From IMG/VR virus record IMGVR_UViG_3300009609_000074, positions 1 through 21,225 of that record: a stretch of DNA of 21,225 nt. One strand, 5' to 3'. Source of the stretch: a virus. Of this stretch, positions 2,902-21,225 are shown piece by piece. Positions within the stretch are counted from its first letter, which is position 1; every line of letters begins with the position of its first letter. Below the pieces are notes generated by a model. It did no database searches, was not told where the DNA came from, and worked only from the letters and a program-made list of their open reading frames with translations. Made by a program: the position numbers and the translations under genes.

Positions 2902-4002
2902 ATGAGCGCGATCGAAATCTTCAAGCCCGGCCGCCATGTCGCGACAAGCGGCAAATCCCTGGAGTTTTCCGATGCTGATCTGACAGCCACCGCCGCGGCC
3001 TACGATCCGGCGGTGCACGAGGCGCCGATCGTCATCGGCCATCCGAAGACCGATGCGCCCGCCTACGGGTGGATCAAGTCCCTCAAATTCAACGGGCGGC
3101 TGGAGGCCGAGCCCCAGCAGCTCGACGCGGCGTTCGCGGATATGGTCGCTGCCGGACGCTTCAAGAAAATCTCCGCCAGCTTCTGGTTGCCTGACGCGGA
3201 TGACAATCCGAAGCCCGGGGTCTACTACCTGCGGCACGTCGGCTTCCTCGGCGCAGCACCCCCATCGGTCAAGGGCCTGAAACCCGTCGCGTTCAGCGCG
3301 AGCGCGGAAGGCGTCATCGAGTTCAGCGACTGGACGCCGATGCAAAACGCATCGCTGTGGCGCCGTATGCGCGAGTGGTTGATCAGCAAGTTCACGCTGG
3401 AAGAGGCCGATCAGATCATCCCCGGCTACATGGTCGAGGATCTCGAGGCCGCGGCTCGCGGCAACCAGGCGGCGGTTGCATACGCCGAGGAACTCAACAC
3501 GGAGAACGACATGGCCACGCAAGCAGAAATCGCAGCGCGCGAAGCGAAGATCAAAACCGATCAGGAAGCCCTCGACCGGAAGAATGCCGAGTTCGCTGCG
3601 CGCGAGGAGCGGTTGCGGGCGGCGGAGTTGGTTACGCGCCGCACCGCGATCGCCGAGTTCGTCGCCGGCCTGGTAAAGGGCGGCAAAGTGCTGCCGCGCG
3701 ACCAGGCGGGGCTCGTCGCCTACATGGCCGGCCCGAACGATGCCGGCGTGATCGAGTTTGCCGAAGGCGAGGCGAAGAAGACCGCGAAGCCGGATGAATG
3801 GCTGCGCGGCTTCCTCACGAACCTGCCCAAGGCAGTGGACTTTACCGAGCACGCGCAGCGCGGCGCCGAGCAGACGGAGCTCACCGGTGAAGTGATCGCC
3901 AAGCGCGCGATCGAATTTCAGGAATCCGAGCGCAAGGCCGGCCGTGAGGTATCGGTGATCGCGGCGGTCGAGCACGTATCCAAGGCGGCCGCAACGCAGT
4001 AG
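2902..4002 (+). CDS. Mu gpI-like prohead protease with C-terminal scaffold (gp32-like)
   Basis: The 366-aa product fits the Mu-like prophage I protein family: an N-terminal capsid maturation protease fused to a C-terminal scaffold. The protease part covers about residues 1-135. It has 'VIGHPKTDAPAYGWIKSL' with His47, then 'KKISASFWLP' with Ser91/Ser93, then 'YYLRHVGFLGAAPPSVKGL' with His112. A conserved His and Ser of this kind are plausible catalytic residues, though the assignment is an inference. From about residue 200 the protein becomes Ala/Glu/Lys/Arg-rich and probably coiled coil, as expected for a scaffold. An in-frame ATG at codon 204 (position 3511), with its own GGAGA, would make the scaffold separately, as Mu does with I and Z. 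ATG at 2902 is the only sensible start; the SD before it is weak. Confidence 0.87.
   Translation: MSAIEIFKPGRHVATSGKSLEFSDADLTATAAAYDPAVHEAPIVIGHPKTDAPAYGWIKSLKFNGRLEAEPQQLDAAFADMVAAGRFKKISASFWLPDADDNPKPGVYYLRHVGFLGAAPPSVKGLKPVAFSASAEGVIEFSDWTPMQNASLWRRMREWLISKFTLEEADQIIPGYMVEDLEAAARGNQAAVAYAEELNTENDMATQAEIAAREAKIKTDQEALDRKNAEFAAREERLRAAELVTRRTAIAEFVAGLVKGGKVLPRDQAGLVAYMAGPNDAGVIEFAEGEAKKTAKPDEWLRGFLTNLPKAVDFTEHAQRGAEQTELTGEVIAKRAIEFQESERKAGREVSVIAAVEHVSKAAATQ
3501..3505 (+). promoter_or_regulatory. Internal ribosome binding site for a nested scaffold
   Basis: GGAGA lies 5 nt before ATG 3511, inside and in frame with the protease gene. It is the best Shine-Dalgarno/start pair seen inside this gene and supports independent translation of the C-terminal scaffold. 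Confidence 0.6.
3511..4002 (+). CDS. Nested scaffold protein from an internal in-frame start (gpZ-like)
   Basis: Starting at ATG 3511, in the same frame as the protease, the product would be 163 aa. Its first 40 residues are rich in Ala, Glu, Lys and Arg with a heptad-like pattern, suggesting a coiled coil, followed by a mixed alpha-helical domain. In Mu, the scaffold Z is made from an internal start in gene I, so the arrangement has a precedent. Evidence here is the GGAGA 5 nt upstream of the ATG and the change from protease-like to scaffold-like composition at this point. If real, the free scaffold should outnumber the protease fusion in the prohead. Confidence is limited because internal starts cannot be proven by sequence alone. 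Confidence 0.6.
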   Translation: MATQAEIAAREAKIKTDQEALDRKNAEFAAREERLRAAELVTRRTAIAEFVAGLVKGGKVLPRDQAGLVAYMAGPNDAGVIEFAEGEAKKTAKPDEWLRGFLTNLPKAVDFTEHAQRGAEQTELTGEVIAKRAIEFQESERKAGREVSVIAAVEHVSKAAATQ

Positions 4003-4864: not shown

Positions 4865-5908
4865 ATGAAACTGCGATTCCATCTGATTCAGTTGCTCGGC
4901 GTTGCACTCGTCCTGGCAGCCTGGCTCGCCGGCCTGCTGCCGGCCGAGGGCATGCCGATCCTCGCGATGGCGCTCGCGCCGTTCCCGGTGACGCCGAAGC
5001 TCCAGGGCATCACGCTCGCCTACCGGAACCGATCGCTCATCGGCGACGAGATCCTGCCGCGCGTTCCCGTGGGCCTGCAGGCGTTCAAGTACCTGTCTTA
5101 CCCGAAGGGGACGTTCTTCACGCTGCCCGAGACGCTCGTCGGACGCAAGGGACGGCCGAATACCGTGGAGTTCGAGGCGACCGAGATTGATTCGTCCACG
5201 AAGGACTATGCGCTCGATGACGAGGTGCCGGTCGCCGACATCAACAACGCGGCAGCCCAGCCCGGCATGCCCGATCCCCTGGCGCGCGCCACGGAGGGCA
5301 TCACGGAACTCCTCGCGCTGGCGCGCGAAGTCCGTGTCGCAAGCCTGGTATTCGACGCCGCCCAGTATGCCGCGGCGAACAAGGTGACACTCGCCGGCAA
5401 CGATCAGTGGTCGTCCGGGCACGATGATGGAAATCCTATCGTTGACATCACGGTGGGCCTGGATGTTCCGATCATGCGCCCGAACGTCGCGGTAATGGGC
5501 CAGGCGGTGAGCACCAAGCTGCGCCAGAACAAGTACATCGTGAAGGCGTTCAACGGCACCACCGGAGACGCCGGCATCGTGCCGATGGGGTTCATCAAGG
5601 AAATCTTCGAGCTGGAAGATATCTACGTCGGCCAGGGCTGGGTCAATATCGCCAAGAAGGGCCAGGTGCCGAACATCGTGCGCGTGTGGGGCAAGCACTT
5701 CGCCCTGCTCCACCGCAACAAGAATGCCGACACGCAGCGCGGCACCACGTTCGGCTACACGGCCGAGTGGGGCACGCGGGTTGCCGGCAGCGAGCGCGAC
5801 TCGCTTATCGGCATGCGCGGTGGCGAGCGCGTGCGTGTCGGTGAGTCCGTCAAGGAACTCATCACCGCGAACGATCTGGGCTACCTCATCGCTGACGCGG
5901 TGGCGTGA
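4865..5908 (+). CDS. Major capsid protein (not gpT-like)
   Basis: The 347-aa product is called major capsid protein from its position after protease/scaffold and decoration genes and from its motif pattern: 'PKLQGITLAYRNRSLIGDEILPRVPV' (about 41-66), then a 'YLSYPKG' strand, 'YALDDEVPVADI' near 116-127, and a C-terminal 'RVWGKHFALLHRN' and 'ELITANDLGYLI'. This pattern is common in HK97-fold coat proteins of siphophages. It does not show the Mu gpT signature, so the capsid gene is probably of different ancestry from the Mu-type block upstream. The odd feature is the first ~29 residues: a basic MKLR start, then a hydrophobic stretch rich in L, V and A, ending LLPAEG, which reads like a signal peptide or a cleavable assembly peptide. 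The stop overlaps the next start (TGATG). Confidence 0.82.
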   Translation: MKLRFHLIQLLGVALVLAAWLAGLLPAEGMPILAMALAPFPVTPKLQGITLAYRNRSLIGDEILPRVPVGLQAFKYLSYPKGTFFTLPETLVGRKGRPNTVEFEATEIDSSTKDYALDDEVPVADINNAAAQPGMPDPLARATEGITELLALAREVRVASLVFDAAQYAAANKVTLAGNDQWSSGHDDGNPIVDITVGLDVPIMRPNVAVMGQAVSTKLRQNKYIVKAFNGTTGDAGIVPMGFIKEIFELEDIYVGQGWVNIAKKGQVPNIVRVWGKHFALLHRNKNADTQRGTTFGYTAEWGTRVAGSERDSLIGMRGGERVRVGESVKELITANDLGYLIADAVA

Positions 5909-15658: not shown

Positions 15659-18439
15659 ATGTCCACGCTCCGCCACAGCGCGCTCCTGACCGACAGCTTC
15701 ATCCCGCTCAAGGGCACCGCGCAGGGCAACGCCAGGGCGCACGCGAAGGCGACCATCGCTCTCGGCTTGATGGGGCTGGCCGAGGGACGCCCGCAGGCCT
15801 TCGGCAAGGTGCTGCGCGGCCTGGCGCTGAAGGGCCGCGCGCAAGGCAACACGCGCGCGCAGGGGAAGGCGATCGGCCGCTGGAAGCTCCGCGGAACGGG
15901 GCAAGGCGTGGCACGCGCCTACGCGCTGCCGAACCAGCTCCCGCGCATTCTCGTGCGGCGCGAGTTCAACGCGCTGCTGCGGATCTCCACGCACCGCTAC
16001 GGGGTCAACGAGGAATACCGCGAGGCGGTGTGGCACGAGCCGCTGGTGATCGAGTTGCCGCACCCGGAGGAGGCGCTGCAGGACGACTTCGGCATCGCCG
16101 CATCGAGCGAGCTTGAGATCGCGATCGCGGACACGGCGCTGCGTGCTGTGCTCGAGGCGGGCACGCTCGACGGCGCGCAGGCGATCGTGGAGGTACTGAC
16201 GCGCAGCCACTACACCACCGGCGCGCCGCAGGAGGAGGTCATCACCAAGGGCTACACGGTCGCCGGGTACCGCTACCGTAGCGGGGAGGTGACGCTCTCG
16301 CTCGCCGATATCGAGGACGTGCGGCTCCAGGCAACCTATCCCTTCCGCAAGTTCGCAGCCAGCGACTGGCCGGAGCTTTTCATCGACCACGCCGGCCGGC
16401 CGGTGCCGGTCGCGGTCGGCACCGCGGTCAAGGTGCCCTGCACGCTGATTGAGACCAACGCCGGCGCCGGGCCGTTCGTCTATGCGGTGTGCGAGCAGGG
16501 GCCGAGCGTGCTGACCATCTACCGCGGCGGGCGCATCGTCTCGCCCACGGAATACACGGCCGGCACGGCAACGGCTGGCGGCTACACGGTGCTCACCGTT
16601 TCCTTCGCCAACGAGCAGCTCGACTTCCAGGGTAACCATTACGCGCTCGAGGCCGACGTCGCGGGCTCGAACAACCGCAACGCCGTCGCGGAGCTAAAGC
16701 GCCTGCTGCTGGCCGCGGGTGCGACAGTGGACCCGGTCTCCTTCACGCTCGCCGAGGCCTACGGCGAGACGGCAAAGATGTACGTGGACTTCGCCCATGC
16801 GAGCGAGCGCACCTATGCGGCGCTCGTGCGCGAGCTGGCGCTCGTCGCGCGCGCGAGCCTGCTGCGGGGCGCGACCGGCGAGTATTCGGTGATCCAGGAC
16901 AAGGCGGTGAGCGTGATCCGATCGTACGACGAGACCGCAGGCGATCTGATCGAGCTGACCGAATACCGCTCGGCGCGGCCGCCGCAGAAGCTCGAGCTGT
17001 CTTTCCGCCCGAACATCGCCCGGCCCGGCGAGCTTGAGCACACGCTCTCGCGCTCGGCCGGCGGCTACACCGGCACTGAGCGCATTGAACTGTCGATGGT
17101 GCGCGACGCGGAGACCGCGGATCGCGCCGCGTGCTACCAGGCGCTGCGCCGCCAGCACGGCGCCCGGGCGCGCGCCTCGGTGCACGATGCGCGCATACGT
17201 GCGGGCCAGGCGATCGCGGTCAAGTCCGGCGGCATCTACAGCGGATCGAAGACGTGGATCGCCGAGCGCGTGCGCTTCGGCGCGGCGGGCGACGAGGTGG
17301 AGCTTCGCCAGTACGCGGACGCGATCCATGTCTACACGCCGGGCACGCTGCCGGCCAACGCCACGACCGGCTACAGCCCCGACTTCTCCCAGACGCCGCC
17401 CGCAGCACCCGGCGGCCTCATCATCACCGCCAACGTCACGAGCCTCAACCAGGACGGCACCGCGCAGTGCGCGCTGACGGTGAAGGCGACGCCACCCGCC
17501 ACCAACTGGACCGAGATATGGTTCATGGCGGAGAACCAGGTGACGAACGAGATCTACCTCGGCCAGGGCGAGGCCATCGGCGGCGGCGAGTACGGCACCA
17601 CGCTTGCCGGCCTGCGCCCGAACACCTTGCACAATCTCTTCGCGTGGGCGGTGAACGGCTTCGGGCTGAAGGGCGAGGTGACAGCGCCCGTCCCCTTCAC
17701 GAGCCAGTCGTGGACCAGCGCGCCCGCGGCTCCCACCGGGGTGGCGGTCACCCAGGCGACGGGAAAGGTGCTGCGCCTCAAGTGGAACCCGGTCGCCGGG
17801 AGCAATATCGACCACTTCAACGTGTTTCGCAAGGTGGGTGCGGGCAACTTCAGCAAGGTGGGCGAGGAGGCCGCCACGGTCTACGTCGACAACGACGTCA
17901 ACTACGGCACAAGCTACAGCTACAAGCTGCGCACCGTCGACCGCGCGGGCAACGAGTCGGATGACTCCGCGACGGTCTCGCGCACGCCGAGCGTCAACGT
18001 CGGCACGCCCGATATCGTGTCGAACGCGATCAGCTCGGTCGTCGGCCAGAATGACAACCAGGCGCAAGTTCTCACCACGAGCTATCAGGACCTCGCCTCG
18101 GTGCAGATCACGACCGAGGGCGGCCGCGTCCTGGTCGATTGGGGCACGAGCTACAGCCTGGAGATTCCGGCCGACGGCAGCACCACGTTTGCCTGGCTGC
18201 ATCTGCGCCTGAAGCGCGGCTCGACGGTTCTCGTCGACGAGACGCAGGCGGCCTACCTTCAGTTCACTGGCGGGGTCGGCGCGAACAGCCGCTCGGCCGG
18301 CGGTACTTACTCGGACACGTACTTCGACACGCCCTCTGCCGGAACGCATACCTATACGATCCAGGGCAAGAAGTTAACCGGCTCCGGGCCGGTGTTCAGC
18401 TATCGCCGCTCGCTGCAGGTCGTGGAGCTGAAGCGATGA
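15659..18439 (+). CDS. Large tail tip (host-specificity-like) protein with FN3 domains
   Basis: The 926-aa product is the largest protein after the tape measure and probably the central tail tip protein, equivalent in role to lambda gpJ. Residues 17-92 are four basic repeats of 20 residues starting L-x-G-x-(A/G)-(Q/E)-G. Residues ~95-570 are a mixed alpha/beta region that resembles phage hub or tip proteins ('FRPNIARPGELEHTLSRSAGGYTG', 'RAQ' helix, 'ERVRFGAAGDEVELRQY'). Two fibronectin III-like domains follow: about 580-685 and 690-785 ('APTGVAVTQATGKVLRLKWNPV', 'NYGTSYSYKLRTVDRAGNES'). The last ~140 residues are beta-rich and may bind receptor or trimerise. No NlpC/P60 or lysozyme motif is evident. 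The start ATG 15659 has no clear SD, so coupling is likely. Confidence 0.75.
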   Translation: MSTLRHSALLTDSFIPLKGTAQGNARAHAKATIALGLMGLAEGRPQAFGKVLRGLALKGRAQGNTRAQGKAIGRWKLRGTGQGVARAYALPNQLPRILVRREFNALLRISTHRYGVNEEYREAVWHEPLVIELPHPEEALQDDFGIAASSELEIAIADTALRAVLEAGTLDGAQAIVEVLTRSHYTTGAPQEEVITKGYTVAGYRYRSGEVTLSLADIEDVRLQATYPFRKFAASDWPELFIDHAGRPVPVAVGTAVKVPCTLIETNAGAGPFVYAVCEQGPSVLTIYRGGRIVSPTEYTAGTATAGGYTVLTVSFANEQLDFQGNHYALEADVAGSNNRNAVAELKRLLLAAGATVDPVSFTLAEAYGETAKMYVDFAHASERTYAALVRELALVARASLLRGATGEYSVIQDKAVSVIRSYDETAGDLIELTEYRSARPPQKLELSFRPNIARPGELEHTLSRSAGGYTGTERIELSMVRDAETADRAACYQALRRQHGARARASVHDARIRAGQAIAVKSGGIYSGSKTWIAERVRFGAAGDEVELRQYADAIHVYTPGTLPANATTGYSPDFSQTPPAAPGGLIITANVTSLNQDGTAQCALTVKATPPATNWTEIWFMAENQVTNEIYLGQGEAIGGGEYGTTLAGLRPNTLHNLFAWAVNGFGLKGEVTAPVPFTSQSWTSAPAAPTGVAVTQATGKVLRLKWNPVAGSNIDHFNVFRKVGAGNFSKVGEEAATVYVDNDVNYGTSYSYKLRTVDRAGNESDDSATVSRTPSVNVGTPDIVSNAISSVVGQNDNQAQVLTTSYQDLASVQITTEGGRVLVDWGTSYSLEIPADGSTTFAWLHLRLKRGSTVLVDETQAAYLQFTGGVGANSRSAGGTYSDTYFDTPSAGTHTYTIQGKKLTGSGPVFSYRRSLQVVELKR
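15707..15934 (+). repeat. Four 60-bp coding repeats in the tip protein gene
   Basis: Codons 17-92 encode four units with an exact period of 20 residues, beginning LKGTAQG, LMGLAEG, LKGRAQG and LRGTGQG (the last unit is partial). The amino acid pattern is better kept than the bases. Confidence 0.8.
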
Positions 18440-19167
18440 AAATCCATCACGGCGAGCAGAGCTACTCCGCCTCCGCGACCTCGCAGCAGACGGGCTACGA
18501 GGCGTCCAATCTCGTCCTGCCGCAGGTGCGCCGCGCCTGGCGCTCGTCCGCCACGACCGAGCAAGTGGTGACGCTCGACATGGGCTCGAGCAAGACGCCG
18601 GCGAGCCTCTGGGTGCAGGAGGTGAACTGGGCGACGGCCACCATCGAGCGCAGCGCGGACGGTGCCGCCTGGTCGAGCGTCGGCACGCTCACGAGCTACC
18701 AGGACATCCACGGCCGTCGCAAGGGCCTGATCGCGATCGGCATCGCCTGCCGGTTTGTCCGCGCGACGATCCCCAACGGCACGCCCACGGACGGCGCGGC
18801 CTACTTCTCGATCGGGGCCGCGTATCTTTTCTTGAACAGCGAGTCCGCCGCTATCCCGCCCGAGTGGGGACACGAGCTGGCGGTGGCGTACCCGCAGTCG
18901 CGGCGGGACCTGCCGAACGGGCGATCGGTGACCGTGGAGCTGGGCGCGCCGCAAATGACTTTGAGGGGCCAATTCCCGCCCAAGCCGGCCGAGGACGCAG
19001 CGAAGGTCATCCGGCTCGCGCGCGCGGGTACCGTTGGCATCGACATGGAATTGACGGCCAGCCGCGAGCGCGCGTGGCCGATGCGGGACTACGAGAGCGG
19101 CTTCACCCAGCGACCGCAGAACGTCGCCGTGTGGCCGGTTCAATTCACGTTGAAGGAGGTCGCTTAA
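18436..19167 (+). CDS. Tail protein with discoidin-like N-terminal domain
   Basis: The 243-aa product starts at ATG 18436, overlapping the tip protein stop (ATGA). An upstream in-frame extension exists but lies inside the tip gene and is not needed. Residues ~20-125 resemble a discoidin/F5-8C galactose-binding-like fold: 'ASNLVLPQVRRAWRSS', 'VVTLDMGSSKTPASLWVQEVNWATATIERSADGAAWSSVG' and a closing 'RFVRATIPNGTP'. The C-terminal ~90 residues ('SVTVELGAPQMTLRGQFPP...WPMRDYESGF.QRPQNVAVWPVQFTLKEVA') are beta-rich and probably attach to the tail. It is the last gene of the structural run. Its TAA stop is inside an inverted repeat (19164-19176). Confidence 0.72.
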   Translation: MKIHHGEQSYSASATSQQTGYEASNLVLPQVRRAWRSSATTEQVVTLDMGSSKTPASLWVQEVNWATATIERSADGAAWSSVGTLTSYQDIHGRRKGLIAIGIACRFVRATIPNGTPTDGAAYFSIGAAYLFLNSESAAIPPEWGHELAVAYPQSRRDLPNGRSVTVELGAPQMTLRGQFPPKPAEDAAKVIRLARAGTVGIDMELTASRERAWPMRDYESGFTQRPQNVAVWPVQFTLKEVA

Positions 19168-19176
19168 CGACGTTAA
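19164..19176. repeat. Inverted repeat TTAACG-A-CGTTAA at the operon end
   Basis: Six-bp perfect arms flank one A, and the left arm holds the TAA stop of the last tail gene. It is followed by a short A-run and marks the border between tail genes and the non-coding stretch. Confidence 0.6.
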
Positions 19177-19180
19177 AAAA

Positions 19181-19289
19181 GAGGAGGCGACCAACCGGTG
19201 TTGTGGCACCGGCAAGCCACCTCAGCCCACTGCATGCACAGTGAGCCTCGGCCGAGGCCTCCCCGCCCCGTACGGAGCGAGGGGAGCCT
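19181..19289 (+). ncRNA. Structured non-coding stretch (possible leader RNA)
   Basis: Between the last tail gene and the 54-aa gene about 150 bp carry no gene. Potential stems, in order: 19181-19188 with 19216-19223 (8 bp, one mismatch) enclosing CCGGTG/CACCGG (19195-19200, 19207-19212); CACTG/CAGTG (19228-19232, 19239-19243); the perfect palindrome GCCTCGGCCGAGGC (19245-19258); and AGG-C-CTCCCC/GGGGAG-CCT (19255-19289). A GTGGC/GCCAC pair (19203-19207, 19216-19220) competes with the first stem. No T-tract follows, so it is not a normal terminator. It may be a regulatory leader of the downstream pair; that role is inferred. Confidence 0.4.
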
Positions 19290-19306
19290 AGCACAACAAC
19301 AAAACC

Positions 19307-19312
19307 GAGGAG
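19307..19312 (+). promoter_or_regulatory. Ribosome binding site for the GTG start of the 54-aa gene
   Basis: GAGGAG lies 6 nt before GTG 19319, an ideal spacing that supports this start in the absence of an ATG. Confidence 0.75.
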
Positions 19313-19318
19313 TCACCG

Positions 19319-19483
19319 GTGAGCAAGAAGAAGGGCATCCCCAAGAAGGTGCCAGGCAGGAACGGGTTTAAGTATCGGCAGCAGTACGGCGTCATCGTCA
19401 TCTGTGACGATGAACGCCACCAGGAGCGGGTCTACAACCGGCTCCACGCGCGCGGCCTGAAGTGCAAGGTGGTGGCGGTATGA
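19319..19483 (+). CDS. 54-aa basic protein preceding the ABC ATPase
   Basis: Reading from GTG 19319 gives 54 residues: a lysine-rich start (MSKKKGIPKK), then 'PGRNGFKYRQQYGVIVICDDERHQERVYNRL', and a 'KCKVVAV' end. The order is a beta strand (YGVIVIC), a helix (ERHQERVYNRLHARG) and a beta strand (KVVAV). The strong GAGGAG and the ATGA overlap with the ATPase start at 19480 argue that it is a real gene, translationally coupled to the ATPase. I believe similar small 'YRQQ.GVIV.C..E..Q...Y..L' proteins accompany ATPases of this type in other phages, but cannot verify this here. Function is unknown; a partner or adaptor of the ATPase is an inference. Confidence 0.72.
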   Translation: MSKKKGIPKKVPGRNGFKYRQQYGVIVICDDERHQERVYNRLHARGLKCKVVAV

Positions 19484-20208
19484 AGATCTCCGTCCATCAC
19501 AGCTGCGAGGACTTCGAGTCCTACCGGGCAGCACGCGTGAAATCGCTCTTTAACATTTCGGACGGATCGAGGTTCGTGCTCGAAACGAGCCTCCCGATCG
19601 AGGACGGCGAGTGGCAGATCGGCCTGGTTGCCGGCCCCAGCGGCAGCGGCAAGTCGAGCATCGGCCGTGCGCTTTGGGGCGAGCGTGCGGTCTACCGGCC
19701 GCGCTGGCCGAAGGATAGGCCGATCGTCGACGCGATCGCGCCGCACGGTGACTTCAACGCGGTCACCGGCGCGCTCGCCTCAGTCGGGCTGGGTTCGGTG
19801 CCTTCATGGCTGCGGCCGTATCGCGTCCTCTCGATGGGCGAACGCTTCCGAGCCGATCTCGCGCGCGTGATCTGCGATTCGCCTGGGCGGATCGTGATCG
19901 ACGAGTTCAGCTCCGTGGTCGACCGCCATCCATTTTTTTCCGAAGAGATCGAATGGCGTCTCGTGTCCAGGTACTACGAGAGCTACAAGGACCGGGATAT
20001 CAAGTTCGACGAACGACGGACGACGCTCATCCCTTTTGTCGAACTGCCACTTGATGGAATACACGGCGATGGTCGACTGTTCGAGGAGGTTTACGTCGGG
20101 CCGTCTCCCAATCCGACCTTGGCATTCGCCGCTATCGCGAGCTTTTTGAGCAACAAAGGAGCATGCAGCGTCACTAGGAACAGCCTCTCGCCGGAGCGGA
20201 TTGTCTGA
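19480..20208 (+). CDS. ABC-type ATPase with atypical C-terminus
   Basis: The 242-aa product starts at ATG 19480. Walker A is 'GPSGSGKSS' (about 52-60), 'SVPSWLRPYRVLSMGERFRADLAR' contains an ABC signature-like LSMGE (117-121), and Walker B is 'RIVIDE' (137-142) followed by 'FSSVVDR'. This order fits the soluble ABC ATPases, often fused to a GNAT-type domain, that occur in phages and genomic islands. Those proteins are usually much longer and continue after 'VVDR' with a switch His (H-loop) region. Here the sequence from ~150 to 242 has no such motif and resembles nothing I know. The protein is therefore either truncated and fused to foreign sequence, or a new variant. No membrane segment is visible, so it is not a transporter subunit by itself. 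It faces the dinD-like gene with 16 bp between them. Confidence 0.75.
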   Translation: MKISVHHSCEDFESYRAARVKSLFNISDGSRFVLETSLPIEDGEWQIGLVAGPSGSGKSSIGRALWGERAVYRPRWPKDRPIVDAIAPHGDFNAVTGALASVGLGSVPSWLRPYRVLSMGERFRADLARVICDSPGRIVIDEFSSVVDRHPFFSEEIEWRLVSRYYESYKDRDIKFDERRTTLIPFVELPLDGIHGDGRLFEEVYVGPSPNPTLAFAAIASFLSNKGACSVTRNSLSPERIV

Positions 20209-20226
20209 AGAAGCCAGGCGGCTTCT
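20209..20226. repeat. Hairpin between convergent genes
   Basis: AGAAGCC (20209-20215) and GGCTTCT (20220-20226) form a 7-bp perfect stem with an AGGC loop directly after the ATPase stop and overlapping the stop codon of the opposing gene. No T-tract follows on either strand, so any termination is weak or factor-dependent. Confidence 0.65.
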
Positions 20227-21055
20227 AGCCTTGCCGGCGGCCCGATTGTTCCTTCTTCGCGTCAAGTTTTTTCATTGCGCGGGCCGCAGTCTTGAGGCGT
20301 TTCTGGACCCCCGCTATAGGCTCTTCGATCGGCAGAGATTCTGGCGAAAGCCCACTGTTCTTAACCATCATCTCGCGTACTTCTGACCCAACTGAGGCCG
20401 CCGTGTCGGACAGGTTTTGAAGGCCCGCCACCTTCTGAGCTTTCACCCTTGCTGCTGTCTGTGTAACGCGAAATAGATTGCCCGCCAGCTCGTCCAAGCC
20501 CATGAAGTCGTACAACACTTGCCCGTCTGGCACGCCCTTATAGCGCATCAATTGACGGAGCCCCATGTTGTACATGCCGCGAAAACCTGCGTCCTTGAAG
20601 ATTCCGAACTGGGTGCTTTCGAGCCCGGCGGCCTTGGCCACTCCGCTCATTACAGATTCGGCGAGGCGAAGGTCCTGTCGTGCTTCAAGGCGCCCAAGAT
20701 CCTGCTCGTTGATGTGATGCTGGATTAATTGGTCAGCAATCGCAGCGAGCGCAGCCTTGGCCTTGGCGACCTGGGGTTTCTTGGAATCTGCGTGCATCGA
20801 GACGAGGAAGCACGCAAATCGGCTGAGGCGAAATGTGCGTAGCGGCCGCCCGTTATGCTCGATGATTTCGGCGGTAAAGGCTTCGGTGGCGTCGATGTTC
20901 AGTCGTGAGCACGACGCCATTGCCTTGTTGATGACGCCGAGGAATGAGGGCCATGACTCATAGCCCAAGGTGTCCATGAACTGATGGGCGTACCAGTAGC
21001 GGACACCGTTTTCGCAGGCCGCATCTTCGAATTTCTGGATGCTGAACTCGGTCAT
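20225..21055 (-). CDS. DinD-like damage-inducible family protein (BRO-N type N-terminus)
   Basis: The 276-aa product, close to the 274 aa of E. coli DinD, matches that family along its length. The BRO-like N-terminal part has 'VRYWYAHQFMDTLGYESWPSFLGVINKAMASC' (18-49) and 'FRLSRFACFLVSMHADSKKPQVAKAKAALA' (75-104). The C-terminal part has 'FGIFKDAGFRGMYNM' (150-164), 'YKGVPDGQVLYDFMGLDELAGNLFRVTQT' (172-200) and 'VGSEVREMMVKNSGLSPESLP' (222-242). E. coli DinD is SOS-induced and inhibits RecA filament activity, so a RecA/SOS-modulating role is plausible here but inferred. ATG 21055 is chosen: GGGAGG lies 9 nt upstream and the longer 309-aa reading would run over the promoter. No LexA box is evident. 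It is the only clear minus-strand gene. Confidence 0.85.
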   Translation of the reverse strand: MTEFSIQKFEDAACENGVRYWYAHQFMDTLGYESWPSFLGVINKAMASCSRLNIDATEAFTAEIIEHNGRPLRTFRLSRFACFLVSMHADSKKPQVAKAKAALAAIADQLIQHHINEQDLGRLEARQDLRLAESVMSGVAKAAGLESTQFGIFKDAGFRGMYNMGLRQLMRYKGVPDGQVLYDFMGLDELAGNLFRVTQTAARVKAQKVAGLQNLSDTAASVGSEVREMMVKNSGLSPESLPIEEPIAGVQKRLKTAARAMKKLDAKKEQSGRRQG

Positions 21056-21086
21056 CGGTGGGGGCCTCCCGGCTAAGGTTGCGGTG

Positions 21087-21115
21087 ATTATAGACCCAAC
21101 TAAAGGCGGCAAAAA
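21087..21115 (-). promoter_or_regulatory. Promoter of the dinD-like gene
   Basis: On the minus strand TTTTTG (21110-21115) and a perfect TATAAT (21087-21092) are separated by 17 bp, ending about 31 bp before the ATG. It lies next to the tandem repeats at 21140-21182. Confidence 0.65.
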
Positions 21116-21139
21116 GATGGGCCGTACGGGGGCTTGGGG

Positions 21140-21182
21140 GCGTACGCAAACCATGTGGCGTGCGTACGCAAACCATGTGGCG
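21140..21182. repeat. Tandem 21-bp repeats with 22-bp period
   Basis: Two identical 21-bp copies, 21140-21160 and 21162-21182, separated by one T. Each begins GCGTACGC, an 8-bp palindrome, then AAACCATGTGGCG. A related CCGTACGG palindrome is at 21122-21129, so CGTACG occurs three times upstream of the promoter. Candidate operator for autoregulation or a repressor; transposase end-binding sites are an alternative. Confidence 0.85.
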
Positions 21183-21191
21183 CGCTACATC

Positions 21192-21216
21192 CACGTCATG
21201 CGCGATCACGTCATGC
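21192..21216. repeat. Direct repeat CACGTCATGC, 15-bp period
   Basis: CACGTCATGC occurs at 21192-21201 and 21207-21216. It follows the 22-bp-period repeats. No gene is seen in 21056-21225; the whole stretch appears to be a repeat-rich control or end region. Confidence 0.75.
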
Positions 21217-21225
21217 ACCGGAATG

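Follow-up and report, generated by a model that had tools for sequence, protein, structure and literature searches.

A phage ABC ATPase joined to the end of a DUF2971 protein, most likely a relic of recombination in the right-end region of a B3-like transposable phage

In PMC7824862, with reference to Iyer et al. 2013, a GNAT domain coupled to an ABC ATPase is predicted to carry out an uncharacterised acyl modification of a DNA base and is named apart from Mom. For phage Mu, PMC6483171 describes Com as an activator of mom translation and the Mom modification as a shield of the phage DNA against restriction. In the transposable phage KS10, paired direct repeats, presumed to be transposase sites, are located at the genome ends (PMC2628397).

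The window, i.e., the whole stretch of DNA analysed here, is a complete IMG/VR record of 21,225 bases. Its head and tail genes are those of a transposable phage akin to Pseudomonas phage B3, with a portal 50% identical to that of B3 and with portal and tape measure families matched in profile searches; the left half of the phage genome, where the transposase genes and the left terminus would be expected, lies outside the 21-kb contig. Both the head gene set and the right terminus of B3-like phages are present. The capsid ORF (4865-5908, plus strand) opens with a hydrophobic stretch of ~30 residues, and its real start may be further downstream. The last tail-type gene (18439-19167), for which no close relative was found among viral contigs, is followed by a G+C-rich leader, a 54-aa ORF and a 242-aa ORF (Table 1). 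We conclude with good confidence that the 242-aa ORF is a chimera produced by illegitimate recombination in a variable cargo slot, which stretches from the tail genes to the right end of this B3-like phage. The ABC-DUF2971 fusion is most likely a relic of recombination that no longer functions, and not a new ATPase system.

Table 1. Features at the right end of the window
Feature	Position	Strand	GC3	Basis or remark
G+C-rich structured leader of the small/ATPase pair	19168..19318	+		Fold z; no Com ORF
54-aa basic protein, phrog_28816	19319..19483	+	0.89	GTG start; conserved C-terminal motif
N-terminal part (residues 1-149) of phage ABC-GNAT protein	19480..19926	+	0.84	Walker A, signature, Walker B, D-loop
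Putative recombination joint CGC/CAT	19924..19929	+		Exact base ambiguous by a few nt
C-terminal ~93 codons of DUF2971 gene, natural stop	19927..20208	+	0.65	N-terminal two thirds absent
DinD-like gene, phage-borne cargo	20225..21055	-	0.69	phrog_8036; NCBIfam PRK11525 1e-48; PADLOC PDC-S13
Two abutting 22-bp direct repeats, presumed transposase end sites	21140..21183	+		Common to L106
Right terminus of phage, ..CGCGCTACA-3'	21184..21188	+		9-bp terminus as in B3 and L106

Residues 1-150 of the 242-aa ORF match phrog_11143 (E=2.8e-57) at profile positions 1-144 of 357, with nothing of the profile matched beyond. Walker A (GPSGSGKSS), the signature (LSMGE), Walker B (IVIDEF) and SVVDR are all intact in this half, and the best named phage relatives, which match at ~58-65% identity, cease to do so at residue 150. 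Canonical relatives occur in faecal phages, Porphyromonas, Gordonia and Pseudomonas phage Komp_PAO1_1 and measure 373-409 aa. In these proteins, DEF(S/T)SV(V/I)DR is followed by the H-loop region, QIA..GA.AF.K.WRR...VLLSCHYD, and then by the GNAT domain, to which the Pfam Acetyltransf matches in Komp_PAO1_1 are weak. When a canonical relative was modelled with AlphaFold (mean pLDDT 77), a helix (150-165), three strands (170-175, 188-191 and 196-198) and the whole GNAT lay past the cut point. Foldseek searches with the canonical protein recovered the ABC nucleotide-binding domain, with only ABC ATPases among the best 50 matches listed, and PADLOC gave weak partial matches of the window ATPase to mad3.

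Our sample of relatives comprises 6 named ones and 80 from viral contigs, i.e., 87 loci (denoted by L numbers) when the window is included. The normal ATPase continuation past residue 149 is found in 85 of the 86 relatives, the exception, L082, being broken early by a stop. A subgroup (L061, L062, L066, L069, L073, L075, L078 and L079) has an ABC ORF of 229-232 aa and keeps the GNAT as the following sequence; among all 87 loci, the window alone has no GNAT, either fused or following. Stops or frameshifts break the ABC-GNAT frames of L055, L082, L083 and L084, which may reflect either decay of the module or sequencing errors. In the window, none of the six frames contains the H-loop, the last ABC strands, the GNAT or the downstream formyltransferase; canonical ABC-GNAT tails, formyltransferases and Com used as queries yielded no significant match on it, and a Com zinc-ribbon gene was not found there upstream of the ATPase. 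A frameshift in an otherwise full-length gene, which the preliminary description had named as an explanation of the join that would refute it, is rejected, because the canonical tail gives no significant match in any frame of the window.

A search with residues 150-242 alone gives no alignment to the standard ABC-GNAT family, and their homologues are the C-termini of DUF2971 proteins. The best match is to a protein from a Legionella adelaidensis plasmid (WP_058462743.1; 49% identity over 97%, E=3e-21), followed by DUF2971 proteins of Sinorhizobium and, more weakly, by those of Rhodococcus and others. When the full Legionella protein was used as a query, the only significant match on the window was at 19891-20199 (E=4.7e-25), with none for its N-terminal part, and in an alignment with eleven DUF2971 proteins the tail reaches the natural C-terminus of that family. 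In the 287-aa Legionella protein, PF11185 covers residues 101-206 and the segment present in the window begins at about residue 195; Pfam alone missed the tail because PF11185 ends about where the tail starts. On the basis of these alignments, the foreign end is identified as the C-terminal third of a DUF2971 protein, lacking the N-terminal two thirds and, with them, nearly all of the PF11185 region. DUF2971 matches are mostly on plasmids and chromosomes. A fold search with a DUF2971 model (pLDDT 87) returned matches of the ADP-ribosyltransferase type (Tpt1, DarT), of which the best (E=0.056) was not significant. The preliminary view of an ATPase that is normal through Walker B and then turns foreign, with an end of ~93 residues devoid of H-loop and GNAT, is thus borne out by the extent of the phrog_11143 match, to residues 149-150, by the alignments and by the six-frame search.

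At the joint, family conservation of the ABC half ends after SVVDR and the DUF2971 similarity begins at HPFFSEEIEW. The GC content falls there from 0.67 to 0.57, as does GC3 (Table 1), and that of 19927-21188 (0.569) is below the minimum of 0.616 for same-size stretches in the rest of the window. A CA dinucleotide shared at the joint would fit microhomology. Close parental DNA of the joint was not found and the crossover itself was not seen. The joint is known from a single contig, and one exact-match scan, of a set from which near records may be missing, gave no second copy. A recurrent ABC-DUF2971 fusion is rejected, since no further case occurred in phage records or at the DUF2971 loci recovered from genome and viral contigs. 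Neither half of the ORF contains a stop or a frameshift, which could point to recent formation or to selection.

The predicted right terminus, read inward, consists of TGTAGC followed by the two 22-bp sites, the sole abutting pair of this kind in the window; positions 21189-21225 are flanking DNA. At the start of contig L106, a flank of 15 bases, unlike that of the window, precedes the same string, whose second site differs at two positions. The complete phage B3 genome terminates in the same TGTAGCGCG, its terminal 9 bp being identical to those of the window. A similar, B3-type terminus is found in L038. The terminus common to B3 and L106 places the right end of the phage at 21188, and hence the DUF2971 tail and the dinD-like gene inside the phage. 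The DinD-like gene, which adjoins the terminus, has a GC content below that of the phage genes and strongly matches a PADLOC candidate-defence profile (PDC-S13). Its 64% identical relative in another Mu-like phage adjoins a Mu-type protease gene.

In L038, the right-end slot contains com, the small protein, ABC-GNAT and a Formyl_trans_N protein, with the terminus following ~80 bp past the formyltransferase stop. By comparison, L111 (the contig of L106), in which several head and tail proteins are 52-73% identical to those of the window, carries other cargo and no ABC module at its right end, indicating that the cargo of this slot is variable. At least 68 of the 86 relatives have the formyltransferase, and in at least 25 the intact ABC-GNAT module is preceded by a Com zinc-ribbon ORF; these counts, like that of the small protein below, are lower bounds, as some loci end at contig edges. 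The module of Pseudomonas phage Komp_PAO1_1 (L004) also has a Com zinc-ribbon ORF upstream (3683-3928; PF10122, E=9e-21), which the record leaves unannotated.

Collectively, both halves of the ORF are identified, the lost parts are absent, composition jumps at the joint, a phage terminus lies downstream and the intact module occupies the slot of a relative, for which reasons we favour a chimera. Presumably, the ancestor carried the small protein, ABC-GNAT and the formyltransferase. Recombination would have cut the ABC-GNAT gene just past the D-loop codons and joined the cut end to a DUF2971 gene of which the last third was kept, the reading frame being preserved by chance (1 in 3), with the dinD-like gene following the DUF2971 tail and with the GNAT, the formyltransferase and the last ABC strands being lost. 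This order of events is one that we infer.

The strongest competitor, which we nevertheless regard as unlikely, is an artefact of assembly, whereby sequences of two different phages or molecules would have been misjoined in the contig at ~19926, with the true gene running on to the GNAT and the formyltransferase. Such a misjoin would account for the sharp change of composition exactly at the joint and for the single occurrence of the latter in the exact-match scan. However, a random join would seldom place a correctly oriented B3-type right terminus ~1.3 kb past the joint; moreover, the join is in frame and the right-end slot is variable in relatives.

The pair of genes upstream of and across the joint bears on a second alternative. 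The 54-aa ORF (19319-19483) belongs to a conserved family, phrog_28816 (E=8.5e-20 in a profile search), and is joined to the 242-aa ORF (19480-20208) by an ATGA overlap. At least 52 of the 86 sampled relatives carry its motif directly 5' of the ATPase, mostly with the ATGA overlap. In several phages, the motif stands at the C-terminus of a longer, ParB-like protein, with a ParB_N match (2e-5 to 8e-5) below Pfam's own cut-off, and the 54-aa protein is thus read as the free-standing form of that domain. Its conservation identifies it as a genuine component of the intact module, resembling the ParB-like C-terminal domain. In a Porphyromonas phage (L006, 2876-3004), the small protein of the module, DBA55004.1, carries the annotation 'acr candidate'; its conserved place before ABC-GNAT suggests a module component instead of an acr.

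The leader folds better than its shuffled versions (z=-3.2); comparison with Rfam gave no credible family match, and no Com-like translation was found in its plus-strand frames. Related G+C-rich leaders precede the small ORF in the com-less loci L016, L018 and L026, the same sequences from which the search model was built, and covariation support in the four-sequence alignment is weak. Judging from these four sequences, a leader RNA element possibly replaces Com control in com-less members. The overlapping genes and the structured leader of the preliminary description stand. Of its two options, a recombination that replaced the end is supported, since the foreign piece comes from a family unrelated to the ATPase, occurs a single time and coincides with a jump in composition. 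On the same grounds, its other option, a new variant with a partner protein, is unsupported, although the partner itself is real and belongs to the intact module.

A functional fusion, in which the ABC half and the DUF2971 tail would act as one new protein alongside the 54-aa partner, as a variant of the module, is very improbable in our estimation. The frame is open throughout and ends at a natural stop, and the small partner, the overlap and the leader are intact, all of which would suit a functional fusion. Against it, the H-loop, the last ABC strands and the entire GNAT are missing, the DUF2971 piece is truncated as described above, and the fusion is one case among 87 loci. Slightly less probable still is a repurposed anti-host protein, in which the ABC half would still bind DNA or the small ParB-derived partner and the DUF2971 tail would offer a new effector surface.

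The least credible alternative, in which the phage would stop at the joint and give way to host chromosome (a defective prophage or a deletion border), draws on the lower GC and bacterial-type genes there and on the plasmid and chromosomal location of most DUF2971 matches, but is contradicted by the related dinD-like gene of another Mu-like phage and by the B3-type terminus with paired 22-bp sites at 21140-21188, and host DNA from the joint onward is rejected by the phage terminus at 21188.

The intact parent of the chimera is probably a DNA-modification (anti-restriction) module, as predicted in the literature; the roles in exclusion, defence or DNA handling suggested by the preliminary description are unsupported for the window product. 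The Com ORF before many copies of the module would support a Mom-like, anti-restriction role. In the intact module, the GNAT would be the enzyme that modifies bases of the phage DNA in a Mom-like manner, the ABC part and the small or ParB-type protein would serve the GNAT, and Com, where present, would control the module translationally. The window copy lacks both the acyltransferase and the formyltransferase, its ATPase fold is cut short, and it is therefore most likely a relic without that activity; its fusion product would be neither a normal ABC ATPase nor a DNA modifier.

Thus, an apparent new ATPase variant finds its probable explanation in a recombination relic, which illustrates the remodelling of right-end cargo in B3-like phages. 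The comparison also outlines the intact module, consisting of Com (where present), a ParB-type or free small protein, ABC-GNAT and the formyltransferase, as a widespread predicted DNA-modification operon.

Compared to known systems, the locus shares with the phage ABC-GNAT family (phrog_11143) residues 1-149, the small upstream partner, the overlapping start and the right-end position, and differs from it in lacking the H-loop, the last ABC strands, the GNAT domain and the downstream formyltransferase. With DUF2971 proteins such as WP_058462743.1, it has in common the C-terminus and the ~93 residues that lead up to it, among them the EEIEWRLV, TTLIPF and VYVGPSPN motifs, whereas their N-terminal two thirds, with the HYT and LSQWRAY motifs, are absent here and an ABC fragment is joined in their place. 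The transposable siphophage B3 resembles the window in its portal and in its right-terminal 9 bp, yet has only one small ORF after the tail fibre gene and no ABC module. Finally, as in the com-mom operon of Mu, cargo is carried at the right end of a transposable phage, and some relatives have Com before ABC-GNAT; unlike in Mu, the window has neither com nor GNAT, and in the relatives the GNAT is fused to an ABC domain.
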